NCBI GenBank assembly: GCA_945871415.1
Contig: CAMBWG010000050.1
Coordinates: forward strand, 1 to 10,306
DNA: 10,306 bases
From: an uncultured Desulfovibrio sp.
Lineage (GTDB): Bacteria > Desulfobacterota > Desulfovibrionia > Desulfovibrionales > Desulfovibrionaceae
Direction: 5' to 3'
Positions 1-7,097 of the stretch are shown here, in pieces. The translations under genes and the position numbers were made by a program. Numbering within the stretch: position 1 is the stretch's first letter; every line of letters begins with the position of its first letter. The notes under the pieces were generated by a model, which saw only the letters and a program-made list of their open reading frames with translations, was not told the origin of the DNA and ran no database searches.

Positions 1-53
1 AACGACAGGCCGTATGGTTTGAAATGCACAGCATTTCAAACTGAAAATGCTCC
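1..53 (-). repeat. Partial copy of the 147-bp structured intergenic repeat
   Basis: This is the AGAGCATTTTCAG-side end of the repeat described at 54-200, cut by the left edge of the window. Positions 1-52 are identical to 148-199, an exact 147-bp offset, so the two copies are in direct tandem. It carries the first hairpin, stem 18-27 with 31-40 (TTTGAAATGC / GCATTTCAAA, 3-nt loop). Perfect identity over 52 bp suggests a recent tandem duplication, or more units further left. Strand is given as the direction in which the AGAGCATTTT end reads first. Confidence 0.85.
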
Positions 54-200
54 AGAGCGTTTCGACTTTGAAAAAAGGTGAAACGCGAGGCGGCGGCACA
101 GCGCCGCCCGGCCAAAAGTGAGCGGAAAAACCGCGTTTTTTCCGCGAAACGACAGGCCGTATGGTTTGAAATGCACAGCATTTCAAACTGAAAATGCTCT
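54..200 (-). repeat. 147-bp structured intergenic repeat, complete copy A
   Basis: This is a complete unit bounded by AGAGC at 54 and GCTCT at 200. The outermost 20 bases of the two ends are imperfect inverted repeats, 16 of 20 matching by eye. Hairpin 1 has stem 165-174 with 178-187. Hairpin 2 has stem 122-130 with 137-145 (GCGGAAAAA / TTTTTCCGC). A GC-rich hairpin (GGCGGC / GCCGCC) lies around 89-106, and a weaker A/T-rich hairpin lies next to the 54 end. It is inverted relative to the copies at 3858 and 5398 and sits beyond the fmt terminator. There is no coding frame: the frame open in the other two copies is broken here by a one-base indel in an A-run. The name of the family is not known to me; MITE-like or REP/BIME-like are the closest descriptions. 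Confidence 0.85.
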
Positions 201-494
201 AAAAGATCGCTTCCCCCTTTTTTGGGGCGAAAAGGGGTCTGGAACAAAAAAAGCCCTTTTTGCGACATAGACATCAAAAAAGAAAAAACAGCGCCCTGAA
301 ACGGACGCTGTGACAGACTTCTTTTCAGGAACATTTTTGAGAATGCCGCGTGCGCATTGCTTTGCAGGGCTGTCAGACCGGACATCCCGACTTTCCCGTT
401 TCCTGGCGCAGGGTACGGAAGACAAGGGCGGGCAGTTGCCGCAGTGCTTACGCTCACGAAAACAGGCCCGCCGCAAAGACATGCAGACCTGCCA
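201..494. other. Non-coding stretch downstream of fmt
   Basis: This 294-bp gap holds no credible gene. The one long minus-strand open frame (183-482) runs through the terminator and into the repeat, is rich in Arg and Cys, and has no recognisable domain. Besides the terminator at 276-311 there is a perfect 8-bp hairpin, CCCCTTTT at 214-221 with AAAAGGGG at 230-237. It has no T-run on either side, so it is not a standard intrinsic terminator. No promoter is convincing. Confidence 0.6.
276..311 (-). terminator. Rho-independent terminator of the aspS-def-fmt unit
   Basis: Read on the minus strand, ACAGCG (311-306) pairs with CGCTGT (293-288). The stem extends inward by three more pairs, one of them a G-U. 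The loop is 6 nt, and a T-rich tract (TTTTTTCTTTTTT, 288-276) follows directly. This is a textbook intrinsic terminator. It lies about 185 nt past the fmt stop codon. On the plus strand no T-run follows the stem, so it acts in one direction only. Confidence 0.88.
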
Positions 495-1493
495 TCAGGC
501 GGGACACTCGGCACGGCCGCACAACCCCTTGCCTTCGGGACGGACAAAACCATTGACGAAGGCCCGGGCTTCCATGTCCTTCTTGCCCTGAGGACGCACG
601 CTCCCCAGCGCATACCAGGCATCGATACAGGCGACGCGCAGCAGAGAACCGTCCCAGAAGACGCTGCCGGGCAGAATGCGCGGCAACGGGATATCCCGCA
701 GGATCTTTCCCGGCCCCAGTTGCAGAAGCTGGGCATCCTTGCCGTCAAAGTGGAAAAGAGAACGCGCGCCGGGCCAGGGAGTGACGGCCCGGATACGGGC
801 ATCAACGGCCGCGACAGGCGCATTCCAGTCCACATAGCCGTCCGCCTTGGAGAGCTTGGCCGCATAGGTGGCCTGCGTCTCGTCCTGCGGCACGGCATGG
901 GCCGTACCCGCTGCAAACTGATCAAGAACGGAAAGCAGCAGACGCCCGCCCGTTTCGGCCAGTGCGTCATGCAGCGTGCCGCCCGTATGCCCGGCCAGAG
1001 GCAGAGCTTCCTGCGCATAAACAGGTCCGGCATCAAGTGCCGGTACGATTTCCATAATGGAAACACCTGTTTGCGCGCCCTCCTCCCAGTTTTCCATCAG
1101 CGCGCGCTGGATGGGGGCGGCACCGCGATAGCGCGGCAGAAGGGACGTATGCACATTGAGCGGAGGGAAGCGCGGCGTCTCGATGACAGCCCCGGGCAGC
1201 AGCAGGCCGTAGGCCGCCACAAGAAGGAAATCCGGCTGATATTCCGCCAGCTTGCGGCAGGCTTCCTCCTCTTTGAAGTTAAGAGGCTGCTCCACGGGCA
1301 GCCCCAGCGACTGGGCCAGCACCTTGACCGGAGAAGGGGTCAGCTTATGACCGCGTCCAGCCGGGCGATCCGGCTGGGTATAAACGGCCACAATCCGCCC
1401 GGCCGGCCAGCCGGCCACGGCGCGAAGCACCGTGGCGGCCAGCTCGGGCGTCCCCATGAAGACTATGCGGAAGCACTCTTTCGTTTCAGCCAT
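495..1493 (-). CDS. fmt: Methionyl-tRNA formyltransferase
   Basis: The protein transfers a formyl group from 10-formyltetrahydrofolate to the amino group of methionyl-initiator tRNA in the cytosol, making the fMet-tRNA used to start translation. It has 332 residues, close to the usual 310-330. The N-terminal Rossmann-type domain starts with RIVFMGTPE (9-17). The tRNA-binding loop QPDRPAGRG lies at 40-48. The family signature SLLPRYRGAAPIQRA (117-131) is present, with the catalytic triad expected of this fold at Asn113, His115 and Asp154. The C-terminal OB-like tRNA-binding domain begins near SKADGYVDW (about 218). The ATG at 1493 overlaps the end of def by 31 nt and is preceded by AAGG with a 7-nt spacer inside def. 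It fits the family N-terminus, so translational coupling to def is likely. It is the last gene before the terminator at 276-311. Confidence 0.96.
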   Translation of the reverse strand: MAETKECFRIVFMGTPELAATVLRAVAGWPAGRIVAVYTQPDRPAGRGHKLTPSPVKVLAQSLGLPVEQPLNFKEEEACRKLAEYQPDFLLVAAYGLLLPGAVIETPRFPPLNVHTSLLPRYRGAAPIQRALMENWEEGAQTGVSIMEIVPALDAGPVYAQEALPLAGHTGGTLHDALAETGGRLLLSVLDQFAAGTAHAVPQDETQATYAAKLSKADGYVDWNAPVAAVDARIRAVTPWPGARSLFHFDGKDAQLLQLGPGKILRDIPLPRILPGSVFWDGSLLRVACIDAWYALGSVRPQGKKDMEARAFVNGFVRPEGKGLCGRAECPA

Positions 1494-1990
1494 TTTTTGA
1501 CCTTGCTGTCATAGAGGCTTCGCCGCAGCCGGCTGATACGATCAATGAACAGCACGCCGTCCAGATGATCATATTCATGCTGCACAACAATGGCGGCGAA
1601 GCCTTCCAGATCTTCGTCAATGCTGTTGCCGTCAAGACCCGTGGCCTTGAGGTGCACGGTGGACGCGCGCTTGACGGTAGCCCGGTAGTTCATGGGGACG
1701 GAAAGGCATCCTTCCTGCTCGCTGGGGATCATGTCCTCTCCCAGCGTCAGCTCGGGATTGATCAGGACGCGCGGATGGCGTTCGCTTCCTTCCTCGCCGA
1801 TATCGGGGTCCATGACGAGCATGCGGATATTGCGCCCCACCTGCGGGGCGGCCAGTCCCACGCCCGGCGCATCATACATGGTTTCGATCATGTCCGCGGC
1901 CAGCTGGCGCAGCTCGTCGGTAATTTCCGTCACGGGCTCGCATTTTTGCTCCAGGCGCGGATCTGGGTAGGTAACGATCTCCAGCTTCAT
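1463..1990 (-). CDS. def: Peptide deformylase
   Basis: This metalloenzyme removes the formyl group from the N-terminal methionine of new proteins, reversing the mark added through the product of the downstream fmt. Its 175 residues are typical. All three family motifs are intact: motif I GVGLAAPQVG (43-52), motif II EGCLSVP (93-99), and motif III QHEYDHLDG (137-145). The metal ligands should be Cys95, His138 and His142, with Glu139 as catalytic base. The lysine- and arginine-rich tail (WLKRKSASA) covers the overlap with fmt. The gene starts 4 nt after the aspS stop codon and ends 31 nt inside fmt, so the three genes form one transcript. No strong Shine-Dalgarno precedes the ATG (only GGCGGAA in the end of aspS), so reinitiation by ribosomes finishing aspS is plausible. 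Confidence 0.97.
   Translation of the reverse strand: MKLEIVTYPDPRLEQKCEPVTEITDELRQLAADMIETMYDAPGVGLAAPQVGRNIRMLVMDPDIGEEGSERHPRVLINPELTLGEDMIPSEQEGCLSVPMNYRATVKRASTVHLKATGLDGNSIDEDLEGFAAIVVQHEYDHLDGVLFIDRISRLRRSLYDSKVKKWLKRKSASA
1501..1504 (-). promoter_or_regulatory. Ribosome-binding site of fmt, inside def
   Basis: On the minus strand AAGG lies 7 nt before the fmt ATG at 1493, within the def reading frame. It supports this start and therefore the 31-nt def-fmt overlap. Confidence 0.6.
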
Positions 1991-1994
1991 GGTC

Positions 1995-3845
1995 TTATTC
2001 CGCCGTCTTGCCGCCCTCGGCAGCCTTTTCCGTTTCGCGCAGGCGCAAACCCAGCTCGCGCAGCTGCTTGGAAGACACGGGCGACGGCGCCTGCGTCATA
2101 AGGCAGGTGGCCTTCTGCGTCTTGGGGAAGGCAATAACGTCGCGGATGCTCTGGGCATCGGCCAGCAGCATGACCAGACGGTCAAGGCCGAAGGCCAGAC
2201 CGCCGTGCGGCGGCGCGCCCTGCTCAAGGGCGTTGAGCAGGAAGCCGAACTGTTCCTCAGCCTGCGTAGGCGTAAAGCCCAGAGCCTCGAACATACGGCG
2301 CTGCACCTCGCCGGAATGAATACGAATGGAACCGCCGCCCACTTCGTTGCCGTTGAGCACCATGTCGTAAGCGCGGGCCTTGGCCTTTGCGGGGTCCGTT
2401 TTCATGAGCTCCATGTGACCGGGAGCGGGCGAGGTGAAGGGATGATGGCAGGCCACATAGCGCTTCTCTTCCTCGTCGTATTCATACAGCGGGAAGTCCG
2501 TCACCCAGAGGAAGTTGAACGTACCCGCGGGGATCAGGCCCAGACGACCGGCCAGATGCACGCGCAGGTTGCCCAGCGCGGCGTTGACCATATCGGGTTC
2601 GCCGGCCTGGAAGAAAACGATATCGCCGACCTTGAGATCCAGCGCCTTCTTGATGCCTTCGCGCTCGGCCTCGGAAAGGAACTTGGCAATGGGAGACTGC
2701 CATTCGTCGGCCTTGATCTTGATCCACGCCAGGCCCTGAGCGCCGTAGATTTTGACGAACTCGGTATAGCCGTCAATGTCCTTGCGGCTCATGGATTCGC
2801 CGCCTTCCACCTTCATGGCCTTGACCAGACGGGCCTGCGCAAAGAGCTTGAAGCCGGAACCGCGCACGATGTCGGTAATATCCACAAGCTCCATGCCGAA
2901 ACGGGTGTCGGGTTTGTCCACGCCATAGCGGCTCATGGCTTCGTCCCACGTCATGCGCGGGAAGGGACGGGGAAGGTCAATGTTCATGACATCCTTGAAG
3001 ACGCGGGCCATGAGCCCTTCGGCCATGTTCATAACCCGGTTTTCGTCCACAAAGCTCATTTCAATATCGACCTGCGTGAATTCCGGCTGCCGGTCGGCAC
3101 GCAGGTCTTCGTCACGGAAGCAGCGGACAATCTGGAAATAGCGATCCAGACCGCCCACCATGAGCAGCTGCTTGAAAAGCTGAGGCGACTGCGGCAGCGC
3201 GTAGAAGCTGCCGTTGTTCAGGCGGCTGGGCACGAGGAAATCGCGCGCGCCTTCGGGCGTGGACTTGGTCAGAATGGGCGTTTCCACCTCAATGAAACCG
3301 TCTTCGTCAAGCTGGCGGCGGATGGCCTGCGCCACGCGGTGACGCAGACGCAGATTGGCCTGCATGCGCGGACGGCGCAGATCGAGATAGCGCCAGGCAA
3401 GACGCAGGTTTTCGCCCGCATCGGTGCGATCCTCAATGGGGAAGGGCGGCGTTTTGGAAGTATTGAGCAGCTTCCATTCATGGGCCACCACTTCGATTTC
3501 CCCGGTGGGCAACTGAGGATTGGTCATGCCTTCAGGGCGCGGACGCACCTTGCCTTTGATGGCCAGCACATATTCGGAACGCAGGATATGGGCGTTCTCA
3601 TGCGCCGCGGGGGCAATATCCGGGCTGAAAACCACCTGCGTCAGACCTTCACGATCGCGCAGGTCCACGAAAATCAGACCGCCGTGGTCACGACGGTACT
3701 GCACCCAGCCCATGAGGCAGACTTCGGCGCCGTCGTCGGCGGCGGTCAGCTGCGCGCAGGTATGCGTCCGGGTCCAGTCGCCCAGCTCCTCGATAAACTT
3801 CTGATGTTCCTGTTGAATATCCTGACTTTGCGTTTCTTCGCTCAT
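1995..3845 (-). CDS. aspS: Aspartyl-tRNA synthetase (probably non-discriminating, Asp/Asn)
   Basis: This class IIb synthetase attaches aspartate to tRNA. It has 616 residues, slightly longer than E. coli AspRS (about 590) because of an extra N-terminal segment of some 24 residues. The order is: N-terminal OB anticodon-binding domain (about 26-125, [15 protein letters not shown]); catalytic core with QSPQLFKQ (219-226), motif 2 ([14 protein letters not shown], 243-256) and motif 3 (GLAFGLDR, 549-556); the bacterial insertion (GAD) domain at about 310-445; and GGGSIRIH at 503-510. His54 and Gly106 occupy the positions where E. coli has Leu and Lys. His and Gly there are the pattern of non-discriminating enzymes such as that of Pseudomonas aeruginosa, which also charge tRNA-Asn with Asp. 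That specificity is inferred. The start is supported by AAAGGA six bases upstream. It leads the aspS-def-fmt unit. Confidence 0.97.
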
Positions 3846-3851
3846 TGTCTG

Positions 3852-3857
3852 TCCTTT
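3852..3857 (-). promoter_or_regulatory. Shine-Dalgarno of aspS, abutting the repeat element
   Basis: Minus-strand AAAGGA lies 6 nt before the aspS ATG (3845). It fixes the start of the extended N-terminus. The repeat copy at 3858-4004 begins at the very next base, so the element supplies all of the leader immediately upstream of this site. Confidence 0.8.
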
Positions 3858-4004
3858 AGAACATTTTTAGTTTGAAACACTGTGCGTTTCAAACCATGCT
3901 GCCTTTCGCTTTCGCAAAAAAGCGCTGCTTTTCCGCGCACTTCAGGCAGAGCGGCGCTCTGCCGCCGCCTCGCGCTTCACCTTTTTCAAAGGTGAAACGC
4001 GCTC
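3858..4004 (+). repeat. 147-bp structured intergenic repeat, copy C (aspS leader)
   Basis: This has the same unit length as the other copies but is the most diverged, with degenerate ends (AGAAC at 3858, GCTCG at 4004). Hairpin 1 has stem 3871-3880 with 3884-3893; the one A/C mismatch on the plus strand becomes a G-U pair in the transcribed minus-strand RNA. The third hairpin has changed sequence but is still strong (GGCAGAGC / GCTCTGCC, around 3943-3961). The A/T-rich fourth hairpin, TTCACCTTT / AAAGGTGAA, is perfect at about 3976-3996. No hairpin is followed by a T-run, so none looks like an intrinsic terminator. The copy fills most of the hisS-aspS gap and stops directly at the aspS Shine-Dalgarno. 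Confidence 0.82.
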
Positions 4005-4045
4005 GTGTGAAATACACGCCGTCTTGCGGGCCGTTGTTTTTTCCG

Positions 4046-4103
4046 TCCGGGGCAGAAAGACCGAAACATGTCGACACCCCCGGAGGCCGCCGGACGCTCC
4101 GGC
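4046..4103 (-). other. Two GC hairpins just downstream of hisS
   Basis: Seven bases after the hisS stop codon, GCCGGA (4089-4094) pairs with TCCGGC (4098-4103) around a 3-nt loop. Next to it TCCGGGG (4046-4052) pairs with CCCCGGA (4078-4084) around a larger loop. Neither stem is followed by a T-run on the transcribed strand; A-rich sequence follows the second. They may stabilise the hisS mRNA end or weaken read-through into aspS, but they are not standard terminators. No clear promoter for aspS is visible between here and the repeat. Confidence 0.35.
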
Positions 4104-4109
4104 ACTGCC

Positions 4110-5369
4110 CTACTCCGCTTCCAGCGCGGCGGCAAGATCATTCATGGGCACAAGGCGCTGTTCGCCGGAATCCATATGCTTGACCTGTACGGCCTCCTGC
4201 GCGGCCTCGTCGGGGCCGAGGATGAGGCAGTGGCGGGCATTGCATTTCCCCGCCTGGCGCATCTGGCTCTTGAAACCCGCGTCGGAAAAACACATTTCGC
4301 CGCTCAGCCCGGCTTCCCGCAGCCGCTGCGTCAAAGCAAAGCCCTGATGCCGCCGCTGTTCTCCATCGTCGCCGGGCAGCACAACAAGGAAAAAGTCCTT
4401 GCGGGGGGCCTCCTGTTCGGCCAGCAGCAGGGCAACGCGCTCCATGCCCATGGCAAAACCCACGCCGGGCACATCGGGGCCGCCCAGACTTTTCACAAGA
4501 CCGTCATAACGTCCGCCCCCGGCAACGGCGGACTGCGCGCCGATGCTGCCGCTCACGACTTCAAAGGTGGTGCGGCAATAGTAGTCCAGCCCGCGCACCA
4601 GCCGGTCGTCCTGCTCAAAAGGAACGCCCTGTTCACGCAGCAAATCCAGCACGATATCAAAGTGAGCTTTACATTCGGGGCAGTTGTGCTCCAGCAGGCG
4701 GGGAGCGCCTTCGGTCAGCTCCTTGCAGCCGGGCTGTTTGCAGTCCAGCACCCGCAGGGGATTGGTCTCCAGACGGCGGGCGCAGTCCTCGCACAGACCG
4801 TCGGCCTTATCCCGCAGATAGGCAACCAGCGCTTCCTTGAAAGCGGGGCGACAGCGGGAACAGCCCAGGGAATTGATTTTAAGGCTCACGTCCTTAAGGC
4901 CCAGCGCCCGGATATAGCGTGTCAGCATCATGATCAGATCTGCGTCGGCATAGGGGCTGTCCGACCCCAGACATTCGCAGTTAATCTGATGGAACTGCCG
5001 CATACGCCCCTTTTGCGGCCGTTCGTAGCGGAACATGGGGCCGGTGGTGAACAGACGGCTGACGCTTTCGCGCGTATGCAGAGAGGATTCGATATACGCC
5101 CGCATGACGCCCGCCGTCGCTTCGGGGCGCATGGTCATCATCCGCCCCTTGCGATCAGGAAAGGTGAACATTTCCTTCTGCACCACGTCGGTTTCCTCGC
5201 CGATGGACCGTTTGAAAAGATCCGTGTACTCCAGAACCGGCGTGCGCAATTCCACAAAACCGCACTGTCCGAAAATACGCCGCGCCAACGTTTCCATCCG
5301 GGTGAACACGTCGGAATCCGGCGGAAACATGTCGGCAAAGCCCTTGATGCGCGTGGCGTTACAAGCCAT
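4110..5369 (-). CDS. hisS: Histidyl-tRNA synthetase
   Basis: This class II synthetase attaches histidine to tRNA-His in the cytosol. Its 419 residues match the bacterial norm (about 420). Motif 2 lies at 112-128 (MFRYERPQKGRMRQFHQ), the histidine-specific motif RGLDYY at 259-264, GGGRYDG at 284-290, and motif 3 GVGFAMGMER at 302-311. A C-terminal anticodon-binding domain follows from about 325. Between motif 2 and the histidine-specific motif sits a cysteine-rich stretch with C170-x2-C173, C193-x2-C196, C210-x4-C215 and C230-x2-C233. This could bind zinc and is, from memory, seen in other HisRS proteins, though not in E. coli. The ATG at 5369 follows AAAGGA by 8 nt. The gene lies between purF and aspS, with a repeat copy on each side. 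Confidence 0.97.
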   Translation of the reverse strand: MACNATRIKGFADMFPPDSDVFTRMETLARRIFGQCGFVELRTPVLEYTDLFKRSIGEETDVVQKEMFTFPDRKGRMMTMRPEATAGVMRAYIESSLHTRESVSRLFTTGPMFRYERPQKGRMRQFHQINCECLGSDSPYADADLIMMLTRYIRALGLKDVSLKINSLGCSRCRPAFKEALVAYLRDKADGLCEDCARRLETNPLRVLDCKQPGCKELTEGAPRLLEHNCPECKAHFDIVLDLLREQGVPFEQDDRLVRGLDYYCRTTFEVVSGSIGAQSAVAGGGRYDGLVKSLGGPDVPGVGFAMGMERVALLLAEQEAPRKDFFLVVLPGDDGEQRRHQGFALTQRLREAGLSGEMCFSDAGFKSQMRQAGKCNARHCLILGPDEAAQEAVQVKHMDSGEQRLVPMNDLAAALEAE

Positions 5370-5377
5370 TTTTTCTA

Positions 5378-5383
5378 TCCTTT
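5378..5383 (-). promoter_or_regulatory. Shine-Dalgarno of hisS
   Basis: Minus-strand AAAGGA lies 8 nt before the hisS ATG at 5369. Only 14 nt separate it from the repeat copy at 5398-5544. Confidence 0.75.
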
Positions 5384-5397
5384 ATGCTACAGCTTCC

Positions 5398-5544
5398 AGA
5401 GCATTTTCAGTTTGAAACGCGTGGCGTTTCAAAACATACGACCTGTCGTTTCGCGGAAAAAGCGCAGTTTTTCCACTCAGTTCGGGCCGGGCGGCATACT
5501 GGCCGCCGCATCGCGCTTCACCTTTTTCAAAGGTGAAGCGCTCT
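5398..5544 (+). repeat. 147-bp structured intergenic repeat, copy B (hisS leader)
   Basis: This copy has intact ends, AGAGC at 5398 and GCTCT at 5544. Hairpin 1 has stem 5411-5420 with 5424-5433 (TTTGAAACGC / GCGTTTCAAA). Hairpin 2 has stem 5453-5461 with 5468-5476, with one plus-strand C/A mismatch that is G-U in minus-strand RNA. The third is GGCGGC / GCCGCC around 5490-5507. Hairpin 4 is a perfect 13-bp stem, 5513-5525 with 5529-5541. The copy fills nearly the whole 184-bp purF-hisS gap, leaving 9 bp on the purF side and 28 bp on the hisS side. Any promoter or terminator between these genes would therefore have to be in the element itself. Confidence 0.87.
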
Positions 5545-5553
5545 ACCGGGCGT

Positions 5554-6960
5554 TTACGACGAAACCTTGCCGCAGGCGCCCTCGAGACGATATTTGCCGC
5601 ATTCCTTGCAGGGTACGGGATAGTCACCGGTGAAACAGGCCAGACAATAGCTGTCCGAATGCATGACGGAACGCAGCAGACCTTCCACGCTCAGATAATG
5701 CAGGGAGTCCACATTGAAGATGGACTTCATCTCTTCCAGCGTATGATTGGCCGCAATAAGTTCCTTGGGAGAAGCAAAGTCAATGCCGTAGAAACAGGGG
5801 AACTTGACCGGCGGACAGGAAATGCGGATATGCACTTCCTTGGCGCCCAGCTCGCGCAGCTTCTTGACGCGGGTGATCATGGTCGTGCCGCGCACGATGG
5901 AGTCATCCACAATGCAGATGCGCTTGCCGTCAATCATGGCCTGCACGGGGTTGATCTTCACCCTTACGCCGAAGTTGCGCATACCCTGCGAAGGCTGAAT
6001 GAAGGTGCGGCCCACATAGTGATTGCGGATCATGGCATGTTCGTAGGGCAGTTCCGCGCACTGGGCAAAGCCCACGGCCGGATACACGCCCGAATCCGGG
6101 AAGGGAAGCACAAGATCCGCATCGGGCGAGGATTCATAGGCCAGCTGCCAGCCCATATTCTTACGACAGACATATACCTGCTCATTAAAAATATAGGAGT
6201 CCGGACGGGCAAAATAGACCAGCTCGAAAATGCACTGGCGGGGCTTTTCCGGCAGGGGGCCGTCCAGCTTCTCGCTGTGTTCGCCCTGAGCGTCGACAAT
6301 GTAGACTTCGCCCGGCGCGATGCTGCGTTCGTAATCGGCTTCCAGCAGGTCAAAGGCGCAGGTTTCGGAGGCAAACACCGGAGCCCCGTCAAGACGCCCC
6401 AGCGCCAGAGGATGAAAACCGAAGGGGTCGCGCACCGCCACCATGACGTCGTCGCAGAGCACCAGCAGGCAATAGGCCCCGCGCACGCGGGAACAGGCCT
6501 CGCGCACGGCATCGGGCAGATCCTTGTGCCGGAGCGCCCGCACCAGCAGGTGCATGAATACTTCCGTATCGTTGGTGGTGGAGAAGATGGCGCCCTCGTT
6601 TTCCAGTTCCGTGCGCAGCGCTTCGGTATTGGTCAGATTGCCGTTGTGCGCCACGGCAATATCCTTGCCTTTATAATGGGCAAGGAAGGGCTGGGCATTA
6701 CGCAGATAGGAACGCCCCGTGGTGGAATAACGCACATGCCCCACGGCGGTCTCGCCGGTCAGCCCCTGAAGATCGGCTTCCGTAAACACGTCGGGCACAA
6801 GACCCATACCCTTGTGCTCATGCATGCCGCCCGAGTCGCGGGAAATGATGCCCGCGCTTTCCTGGCCGCGATGCTGTTGGGCGTACAGGCCGAAGTAGGT
6901 CAGACGGGCCGCATCCTCGTGTCCGTAAATGCCGAATAGGCCGCATTCATGCTTGATCAT
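5554..6960 (-). CDS. purF: Amidophosphoribosyltransferase, iron-sulfur type
   Basis: This enzyme makes 5-phosphoribosylamine from PRPP and glutamine, the first committed step of purine synthesis. The chosen start gives 468 residues beginning MIKHECGLFG. Cys6 is the expected glutaminase nucleophile, exposed after removal of a short propeptide as in Bacillus subtilis PurF. The N-terminal glutaminase domain (6 to about 235) has HRGQES (30-35) and AHNGNL (105-110 region). The phosphoribosyltransferase domain has the PRPP motif ICIVDDSIVRGTT (348-360). Four cysteines aligning with the B. subtilis 4Fe-4S ligands are present: Cys243, Cys389, Cys439 and Cys442. The C-terminus adds three more (Cys451, Cys454, Cys463). 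An in-frame ATG at 7029 would add 23 residues unlike the family, so 6960 is preferred; its GGGGA at 4-nt spacing is a modest ribosome site. It stands alone among non-purine genes. Confidence 0.95.
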   Translation of the reverse strand: MIKHECGLFGIYGHEDAARLTYFGLYAQQHRGQESAGIISRDSGGMHEHKGMGLVPDVFTEADLQGLTGETAVGHVRYSTTGRSYLRNAQPFLAHYKGKDIAVAHNGNLTNTEALRTELENEGAIFSTTNDTEVFMHLLVRALRHKDLPDAVREACSRVRGAYCLLVLCDDVMVAVRDPFGFHPLALGRLDGAPVFASETCAFDLLEADYERSIAPGEVYIVDAQGEHSEKLDGPLPEKPRQCIFELVYFARPDSYIFNEQVYVCRKNMGWQLAYESSPDADLVLPFPDSGVYPAVGFAQCAELPYEHAMIRNHYVGRTFIQPSQGMRNFGVRVKINPVQAMIDGKRICIVDDSIVRGTTMITRVKKLRELGAKEVHIRISCPPVKFPCFYGIDFASPKELIAANHTLEEMKSIFNVDSLHYLSVEGLLRSVMHSDSYCLACFTGDYPVPCKECGKYRLEGACGKVSS

Positions 6961-7097
6961 GATTTCCCCGCTGCCCCCGCACCGGCTGCGAAGGCGCTCC
7001 CTTGGAGCATGTGTTTGACTGTTCGCCATTCTTCAGGTGCAGTACGCTCCGTCCTGCCTGCCGCAAAAACGCCGTTGCCGCATGACGACTTTGCCGG

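Follow-up and report, generated by a model that had tools for sequence, protein, structure and literature searches.

A short multi-hairpin repeat with IS630-like ends dispersed through a Desulfovibrio genome and its relatives

The large intergenic spaces of an aminoacyl-tRNA synthetase region in an uncultured gut Desulfovibrio are occupied by copies of one short, hairpin-rich sequence, which raises the question of what this sequence is, how it came to lie there and why its hairpins persist. The window, meaning the whole stretch of DNA analysed, is the entire contig C50 of 10,306 bp from a 2.56-Mb draft genome (435 contigs, 79% complete), labelled G000 here, of which 780,332 bp were sampled. 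Its gene content by Pfam is fmt, def, aspS, hisS, a purF-like gene, a TPR protein gene and gyrA, all on the minus strand. The closest named genome is that of Candidatus Desulfovibrio intestinigallinarum (L053; 93.5% DNA identity over 10.1 kb), a name which the excerpted source gives to a chicken-gut MAG (PMC8035907). L053 belongs to G095, which matches G021 in its listed places and scores, and G021 was therefore treated as the same genome.

Copies in the window and across the genome

A profile search of the window recovered the three complete copies and the partial copy at the left edge that a first-pass annotation had described (Table 1), and none beyond 5544, as it had also stated. Its borders were borne out for 54-200 and 5398-5544, while the remaining complete copy ends at 4003 and not at 4004: position 4004 belongs to the flank, and the profile match itself stops at 4002. 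At 146 bp this copy departs from the constant length of 147 bp first proposed, and length elsewhere is near-constant, lying between 141 and 148 bp in 97 of the 115 full copies of G000 and in 93 of 108 in G021. The left end of the 3858 copy lies 13 bases from the aspS start codon. Since the window is a complete contig of a draft, the copy at 1-53 is truncated by the contig end. The terminal repeats are similar, not identical, with AGAGCATTTTCAGTTTGAAA on one side and AGAGCGTTTCAACTTTGAAA or a sequence close to it on the other. Folding was better than that of shuffled sequences in all six strand folds of the three window copies (z -3.66 to -7.24); the real fold was equalled by 1 of 200 shuffles in one of the six and by 0 of 200 in the other five.

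Table 1 Features of the window with the element copies, and the parts of the copy at 5398
Feature	Positions	Strand	Basis or detail
Truncated element copy, left-end part (profile 2-52)	1..53	-	Profile search
Full element copy, head to tail with the 1..53 copy	54..200	-	Profile search
aspS	1995..3845	-	Pfam (context)
Full element copy between hisS and aspS	3858..4003	+	Profile and junctions
hisS	4110..5369	-	Context
Full element copy between purF and hisS	5398..5544	+	Profile search
Left terminal repeat, 5398 copy	5398..5417	+	Sequence
Hairpin 1, 5398 copy (TTTGAAAcGC/GCgTTTCAAA)	5410..5434	+	Folding
Hairpin 2, 5398 copy	5439..5489	+	Outer stem 5439-5443/5485-5489, conserved internal loop, inner stem 5453-5476
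Hairpin 3 (GC-rich), 5398 copy	5490..5507	+	Folding
Hairpin 4, 5398 copy, overlaps right terminal repeat	5513..5541	+	Folding
Right terminal repeat, 5398 copy	5525..5544	-	Sequence
purF-like glutamine amidotransferase/phosphoribosyltransferase gene	5554..7029	-	Context

An iterated profile identified 231 non-overlapping copies and fragments in the 780,332 bp of G000, 115 of them full, which amounts to 296 per Mb and 3.4% of bases; the same profile gave 0 matches on letter-shuffled and 0 on reversed G000 sequence. Compared with the copy at 3858, the closest other G000 copy matches at E 1.6e-41. By extrapolation the whole G000 assembly would hold about 750 copies and fragments. The density within the window is ordinary for its genome, and the association with the synthetase region that had first been remarked on is incidental to an element found genome-wide. 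The mark that had been proposed for a discrete element, numerous intergenic copies that vary little in length and have AGAGC ends, is indeed seen elsewhere in the genome.

Relative to open reading frames (ORFs) placed by a custom simple dicodon gene caller (called coding share 82% in G000 and 80% in G021), only 3 of 223 full copies lie mostly within a called ORF (3/115 in G000, 0/108 in G021), and it is likely that copies inside genes have been removed by selection. In G000, gaps between convergent genes hold 26 of the 102 classed copies but make up 68 of the 555 gene pairs, an enrichment with p 0.001.

Junctions, empty sites and a candidate source of transposase

Among 219 full copies with both flanks, taken from G000 and G021, TA is present at both junctions in 71, at one in 97 and at neither in 51, whereas at control offsets 2 to 11 bases further out no copy has TA on both sides. 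Within the same 219 copies junction TA has been lost chiefly where CTAG forms: it is retained at the left end in 34% after C versus 79% after T, and at the right end in 40% before G versus 67% otherwise, the altered forms being mostly CCAG, CTGG and CCGG. The observed-to-expected ratio of CTAG is 0.50 in one and 0.54 in the other of the two genomes, G000 and G021. Vsr repair was considered as the source of this junction decay and is unsupported, Vsr being absent from searches of G000, G021 and G002 and present in G089 and G084.

Comparison of flanks was usable for 111 G000 copies against G021 stretches and for 100 G021 copies against G000 stretches. Both flanks could be placed for 20 of the former (15 shared, 5 empty) and 27 of the latter (15 shared, 5 empty, 7 other), where shared is a loose class that means merely some element between the flanks. 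Inspection by eye of 17 sites unshared between the sister species revealed two clean empty sites with a single TA (L232:2193 and L222:6153, the latter sorted as other by the script), two that are nearly clean (L232:8957 and L178:944), one clean on one side only (L239:11427) and one that keeps a short element remnant (L232:2914); most of the 17 have no clean empty-site reading. Empty orthologous sites in relatives, proposed at the outset as the sign of mobility, were therefore found, two of them clean. The copies beside hisS and aspS in the window are both present in L053 and both absent from L054 (pieces of about 84 to 88% identity), in which the unaligned gap before hisS measures 33 bp versus 180 bp in the window. 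The L053 place corresponding to window 54-200 has no element copy. No G000 copy has a same-length neighbour of at least 98% identity, compared with 5 of 101 in G021, which gives no sign of recent movement within G000 itself.

Searches with DDE_3 led to a 993-bp IS630 element in G021 (L043 1397-2389) with the ends TA-GAGCGTTTCAACTTTGAAA and TA-GAGCAATTCAACTTTGAAA. The first of these, GAGCGTTTCAACTTTGAAA, equals the right end of the element copy on G000 contig C10 over 20 bases, and the second, GAGCAATTCAACTTTGAAA, differs from it at two places; the ends of the window copies differ slightly more from those of the IS630. The G021 element has two overlapping frames with matches to the IS630 transposase model of NCBIfam; one scores above the curated cut-off and the other below it. 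A 91% relative with TA-flanked ends and a single frame of 322 amino acids is found in G089, where a copy of the short element lies head to tail with it. Further pieces at 95 to 100% identity were identified in G021 (six, 94 to 277 bp) and in G084 (one). In G000 a trace of 52 bp at 98% identity stands at the start of contig C160, and searches with DDE_3 and with the IS sequence found no whole IS630 of the matching kind there. The IS-sequence search also gave nothing in the element-rich relatives G083, G088 and G046 and a short weak match only in G086, so that in these genomes the enzyme is missing, lost or a different one. In G002 the left end of one element copy, AGAGCATTTTGCTTTT, is identical to an end of a G002 IS630 copy, and the other element copy differs by one base at its left end; where both can be compared, element ends thus appear to follow the local IS630.

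Two further IS630-related sequences were observed. A 136-bp derivative with both outer parts of the IS630 constitutes a second non-autonomous form (L290 1476-1611 in G000:C234, and similar loci); it is found in the genomes that also have pieces of the IS630, with 3 matches in the 780-kb G000 sample. A DDE_3-like frame of about 280 amino acids, which adjoins a sigma-54-type regulator and is seemingly one and the same in G000 (L041, contig C172) and G021 (L045, contig C84), is perhaps a settled IS630 relative; in G000 element ends were not found around it.

The element is short and non-coding, has terminal inverted repeats, is present in many copies and has orthologous empty sites with a single target, all of which are features of a miniature inverted-repeat transposable element (MITE). 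The duplicated TA target, and the ends in common with the IS630 of a near genome (G021, G089), point to mobilisation by IS630. On the observed copy number, near-constant length, border TA, few clean empty sites, intergenic placement and a near-relative IS630 with the same ends, we regard it as highly probable that the element is an IS630-type (Tc1/mariner-like) MITE, probably moved in trans by an IS630 transposase; an element to which no named family could at first be assigned is now tied to the IS630 family. A transposase made elsewhere would act on the ends of about 20 bp (TA-GAGC...GCTC-TA) and would move the element in trans, duplicating the TA target. The enzyme of the larger IS630 element is probably the one that does so, and the window's own genome presumably holds a working copy. 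Counted against this reading are the 51 of 219 copies without TA, the unclean state of most unshared sites, the failure to find a whole IS630 of this kind in G000 or in several element-rich relatives and the lack of near-identical copies of equal length in G000, as well as a lean towards one strand and an orientation opposite to genes (both treated below), which are not required of a purely selfish passenger.

Hairpins between species and in resident copies

The interior of a MITE is commonly viewed as leftover DNA free to decay. With a central copy as query, relatives of the element were found in 32 of 79 Desulfovibrio genomes (E 1e-3); the 3858 copy, which is more diverged, had matches in 6 of 41 relatives. 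A covariance model built from 19 rows of nine genomes extended this to 38 of the 79 genomes and, in a draw from the class, to 23 of 149, of which 20 belong to the genus itself and three to other genera within its family. The single-contig genomes G045 and G079 are among the genomes that bear it. Measured with the covariance model, 17 of 18 closely examined loci are 145 to 151 bp long and the remaining one 135; as the same model found the loci, length is partly built in. Elements of the G045 type fold with small hairpins that are additional or displaced, and the exact topology therefore varies. One central copy had no match in phage and plasmid collections. A diverged copy in G024 (contig C17) lies just beyond the end of a CRISPR-like array of about 36-bp repeats (L011 1024-1420).

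Alignment A2 comprises 13 of 20 loci and the 3858 copy, with G045 left out because its hairpin 2 is laid out differently. Pairing is retained in 89.6% of its 788 cells, and two-sided changes are seen in 28 of the 42 pairs. The structure has a covariation score of 0.376, compared with 0.135 when the alignment is shuffled and 0.066-0.107 when the partners are slid; it was taken from the first row, which favours it over the slid ones. Length, the order of the hairpins and the internal-loop letters around hairpin 2 all persist between species.

Resident copies behave differently. Pairs were counted within species, among 228 near-full copies from G000 and G021, on the fold of their consensus. The rare changes in stems are mostly ones that disrupt a pair (194 other letters, 31 A-C and 15 G-T among the rare non-pairing ones), and transition rates in stems resemble those of unpaired columns. 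RNAalifold yielded no usable structure from the alignment of these 228 copies. A first count for strand bias, 561 G-T to 399 A-C, was set aside, most of the G-T coming from two poorly supported pairs of hairpin 2 (47/87 and 48/86). With these two and the end-to-end pairs removed, the within-species count is 263 G-T to 363 A-C, a split of 15 to 26 by pair (p 0.12) and 54 to 97 by copy.

The structure is thus renewed between families and lost in resident copies, with no clear RNA strand. As stems change on both arms between species and resident copies lose pairing, the hairpins seem to be retained in the jumping lineage rather than at each site. The best account is that they are kept in lineages that go on jumping, through an effect on transposition or on host tolerance, and do not serve as a host RNA device at each site. 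We tentatively consider a genus-wide MITE family whose multi-hairpin DNA body is selected in the jumping lineage, with new stem letters in each species, ends that track the local IS630, and an unchanged length and hairpin order. If this is true, the hairpins would contribute to transposition itself or help to spare the host damage, and would do so at the DNA level rather than as RNA of the resident site.

The main rival for the step of hairpin retention is correction of one arm by the other through template switching at quasi-palindromes during replication, which would renew hairpins without selection on structure in an otherwise ordinary IS630 MITE. We hold this to be plausible, if short of an even chance. 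It is consistent with both arms changing together through few intermediates (between families 117 cells are altered on both sides, compared with 20 G-T and 25 A-C among the 788) and with the lack of a clear strand preference, but it leaves unexplained the features that persist between species, namely length, hairpin order and the hairpin 2 internal-loop letters, and also why the arms of resident copies drift apart. Selection on the lineage and template-switch correction would both give a structure that is renewed and yet not kept in residents, and the data fit either.

A structured RNA or a regulatory leader maintained site by site, such as an element that stabilises mRNA or an outward-facing promoter serving hisS and aspS, is an improbable reading. 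Such a role would be in keeping with the orientation of full copies between co-directional genes, where opposite exceeds same by 42:22 in G000 (p 0.017) and 41:19 in G021 (p 0.006), and of fragments (33:19, p 0.07, and 27:9, p 0.004); these counts are not independent in the two species, which have insertions in common, and the bias does not rise with divergence (41:21 in young and 42:20 in old copies). The reverse strand folds better in 14 of the 18 loci of relatives. An outward promoter-like word, TTGAAA-18-GAAAAT (or AAAAAT), is present in the left end of all four window copies, which hold 4 of the 5 such matches in the window where 1.4 would be expected; we treat it as a weak lead only. However, pairing is freely lost in resident copies, insertions come and go at orthologous sites, and Rfam gave no family at or above gathering score for the window and nine loci, with sub-gathering matches only.

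Spread as REP/BIME-type repeats by a REP-associated (Y1) transposase, which would suit dispersed, intergenic, hairpin-forming copies, appears very unlikely in view of a fixed two-ended unit, not alternating REPs, whose inverted-repeat ends and TA junctions match IS630. The first-pass annotation had offered a MITE or a BIME-type composite; the fixed ends, single unit and own terminal repeats uphold the former and tell against the latter.

Relation to known elements and consequences for assembly

Correia elements are linked to IS630-like transposition and to TA. The IS630-type MITE described here looks like RUP and Correia elements in the way it would work, and its conserved multi-hairpin body looks new among such elements. 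RUP of Streptococcus pneumoniae (IS630-Spn1; 107 bp, 108 copies) is, in the excerpted account, likewise small, intergenic and non-coding, with IS630-like ends and a TA target, whereas the Desulfovibrio element is about 146 bp long, has far more copies and keeps a multi-hairpin body between species (PMC2229807). Correia/NEMIS of Neisseria share the size class (about 107 and about 155 bp), shorter deletion forms and a long form that is mostly intergenic, and promoters and RNase III processing have been proposed for them; they appear to differ in sequence, no four-stem body is described in the excerpts of that source, and the Desulfovibrio element is not classed with them (PMC2229807). The CIR repeats of alpha-proteobacteria are also intergenic with a proposed fold kept between species, but by the same partial account have two arms and unclear mobility, in contrast to four stems, TA junctions and empty sites (PMC2229807). 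Repeats of Borrelia plasmids are intergenic with stems that change on both arms between orthologs, but appear in the excerpted text as short single stem-loops with no shown transposon ends, the author merely suggesting that a MITE link be sought (PMC2674063). A literature search of open-licence papers (titles and the starts of abstracts) found no description of the element, nor any MITE with a multi-hairpin body renewed by paired changes.

In many Desulfovibrio species the element retains a string of hairpins whose letters have changed, and it takes up 3.4% of the sampled genome of the window. Sites with and without a copy, complete genomes and a candidate transposase are all available, so that the purpose of a MITE interior is directly testable. 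The copies also matter for genome assembly: among 61 G000 contig stretches, 10 begin and 8 end at most 5 bases from a copy. A second dispersed repeat, which is GC-rich (GGGGGAAGGAACCCC...GTCGATG...CGGCCTGCGGCC...; L053 about 15960-16200, the G000 stretches L022, L034 and L031, and others), has 24 matches in the 780-kb G000 sample and frequently adjoins sites of the element.
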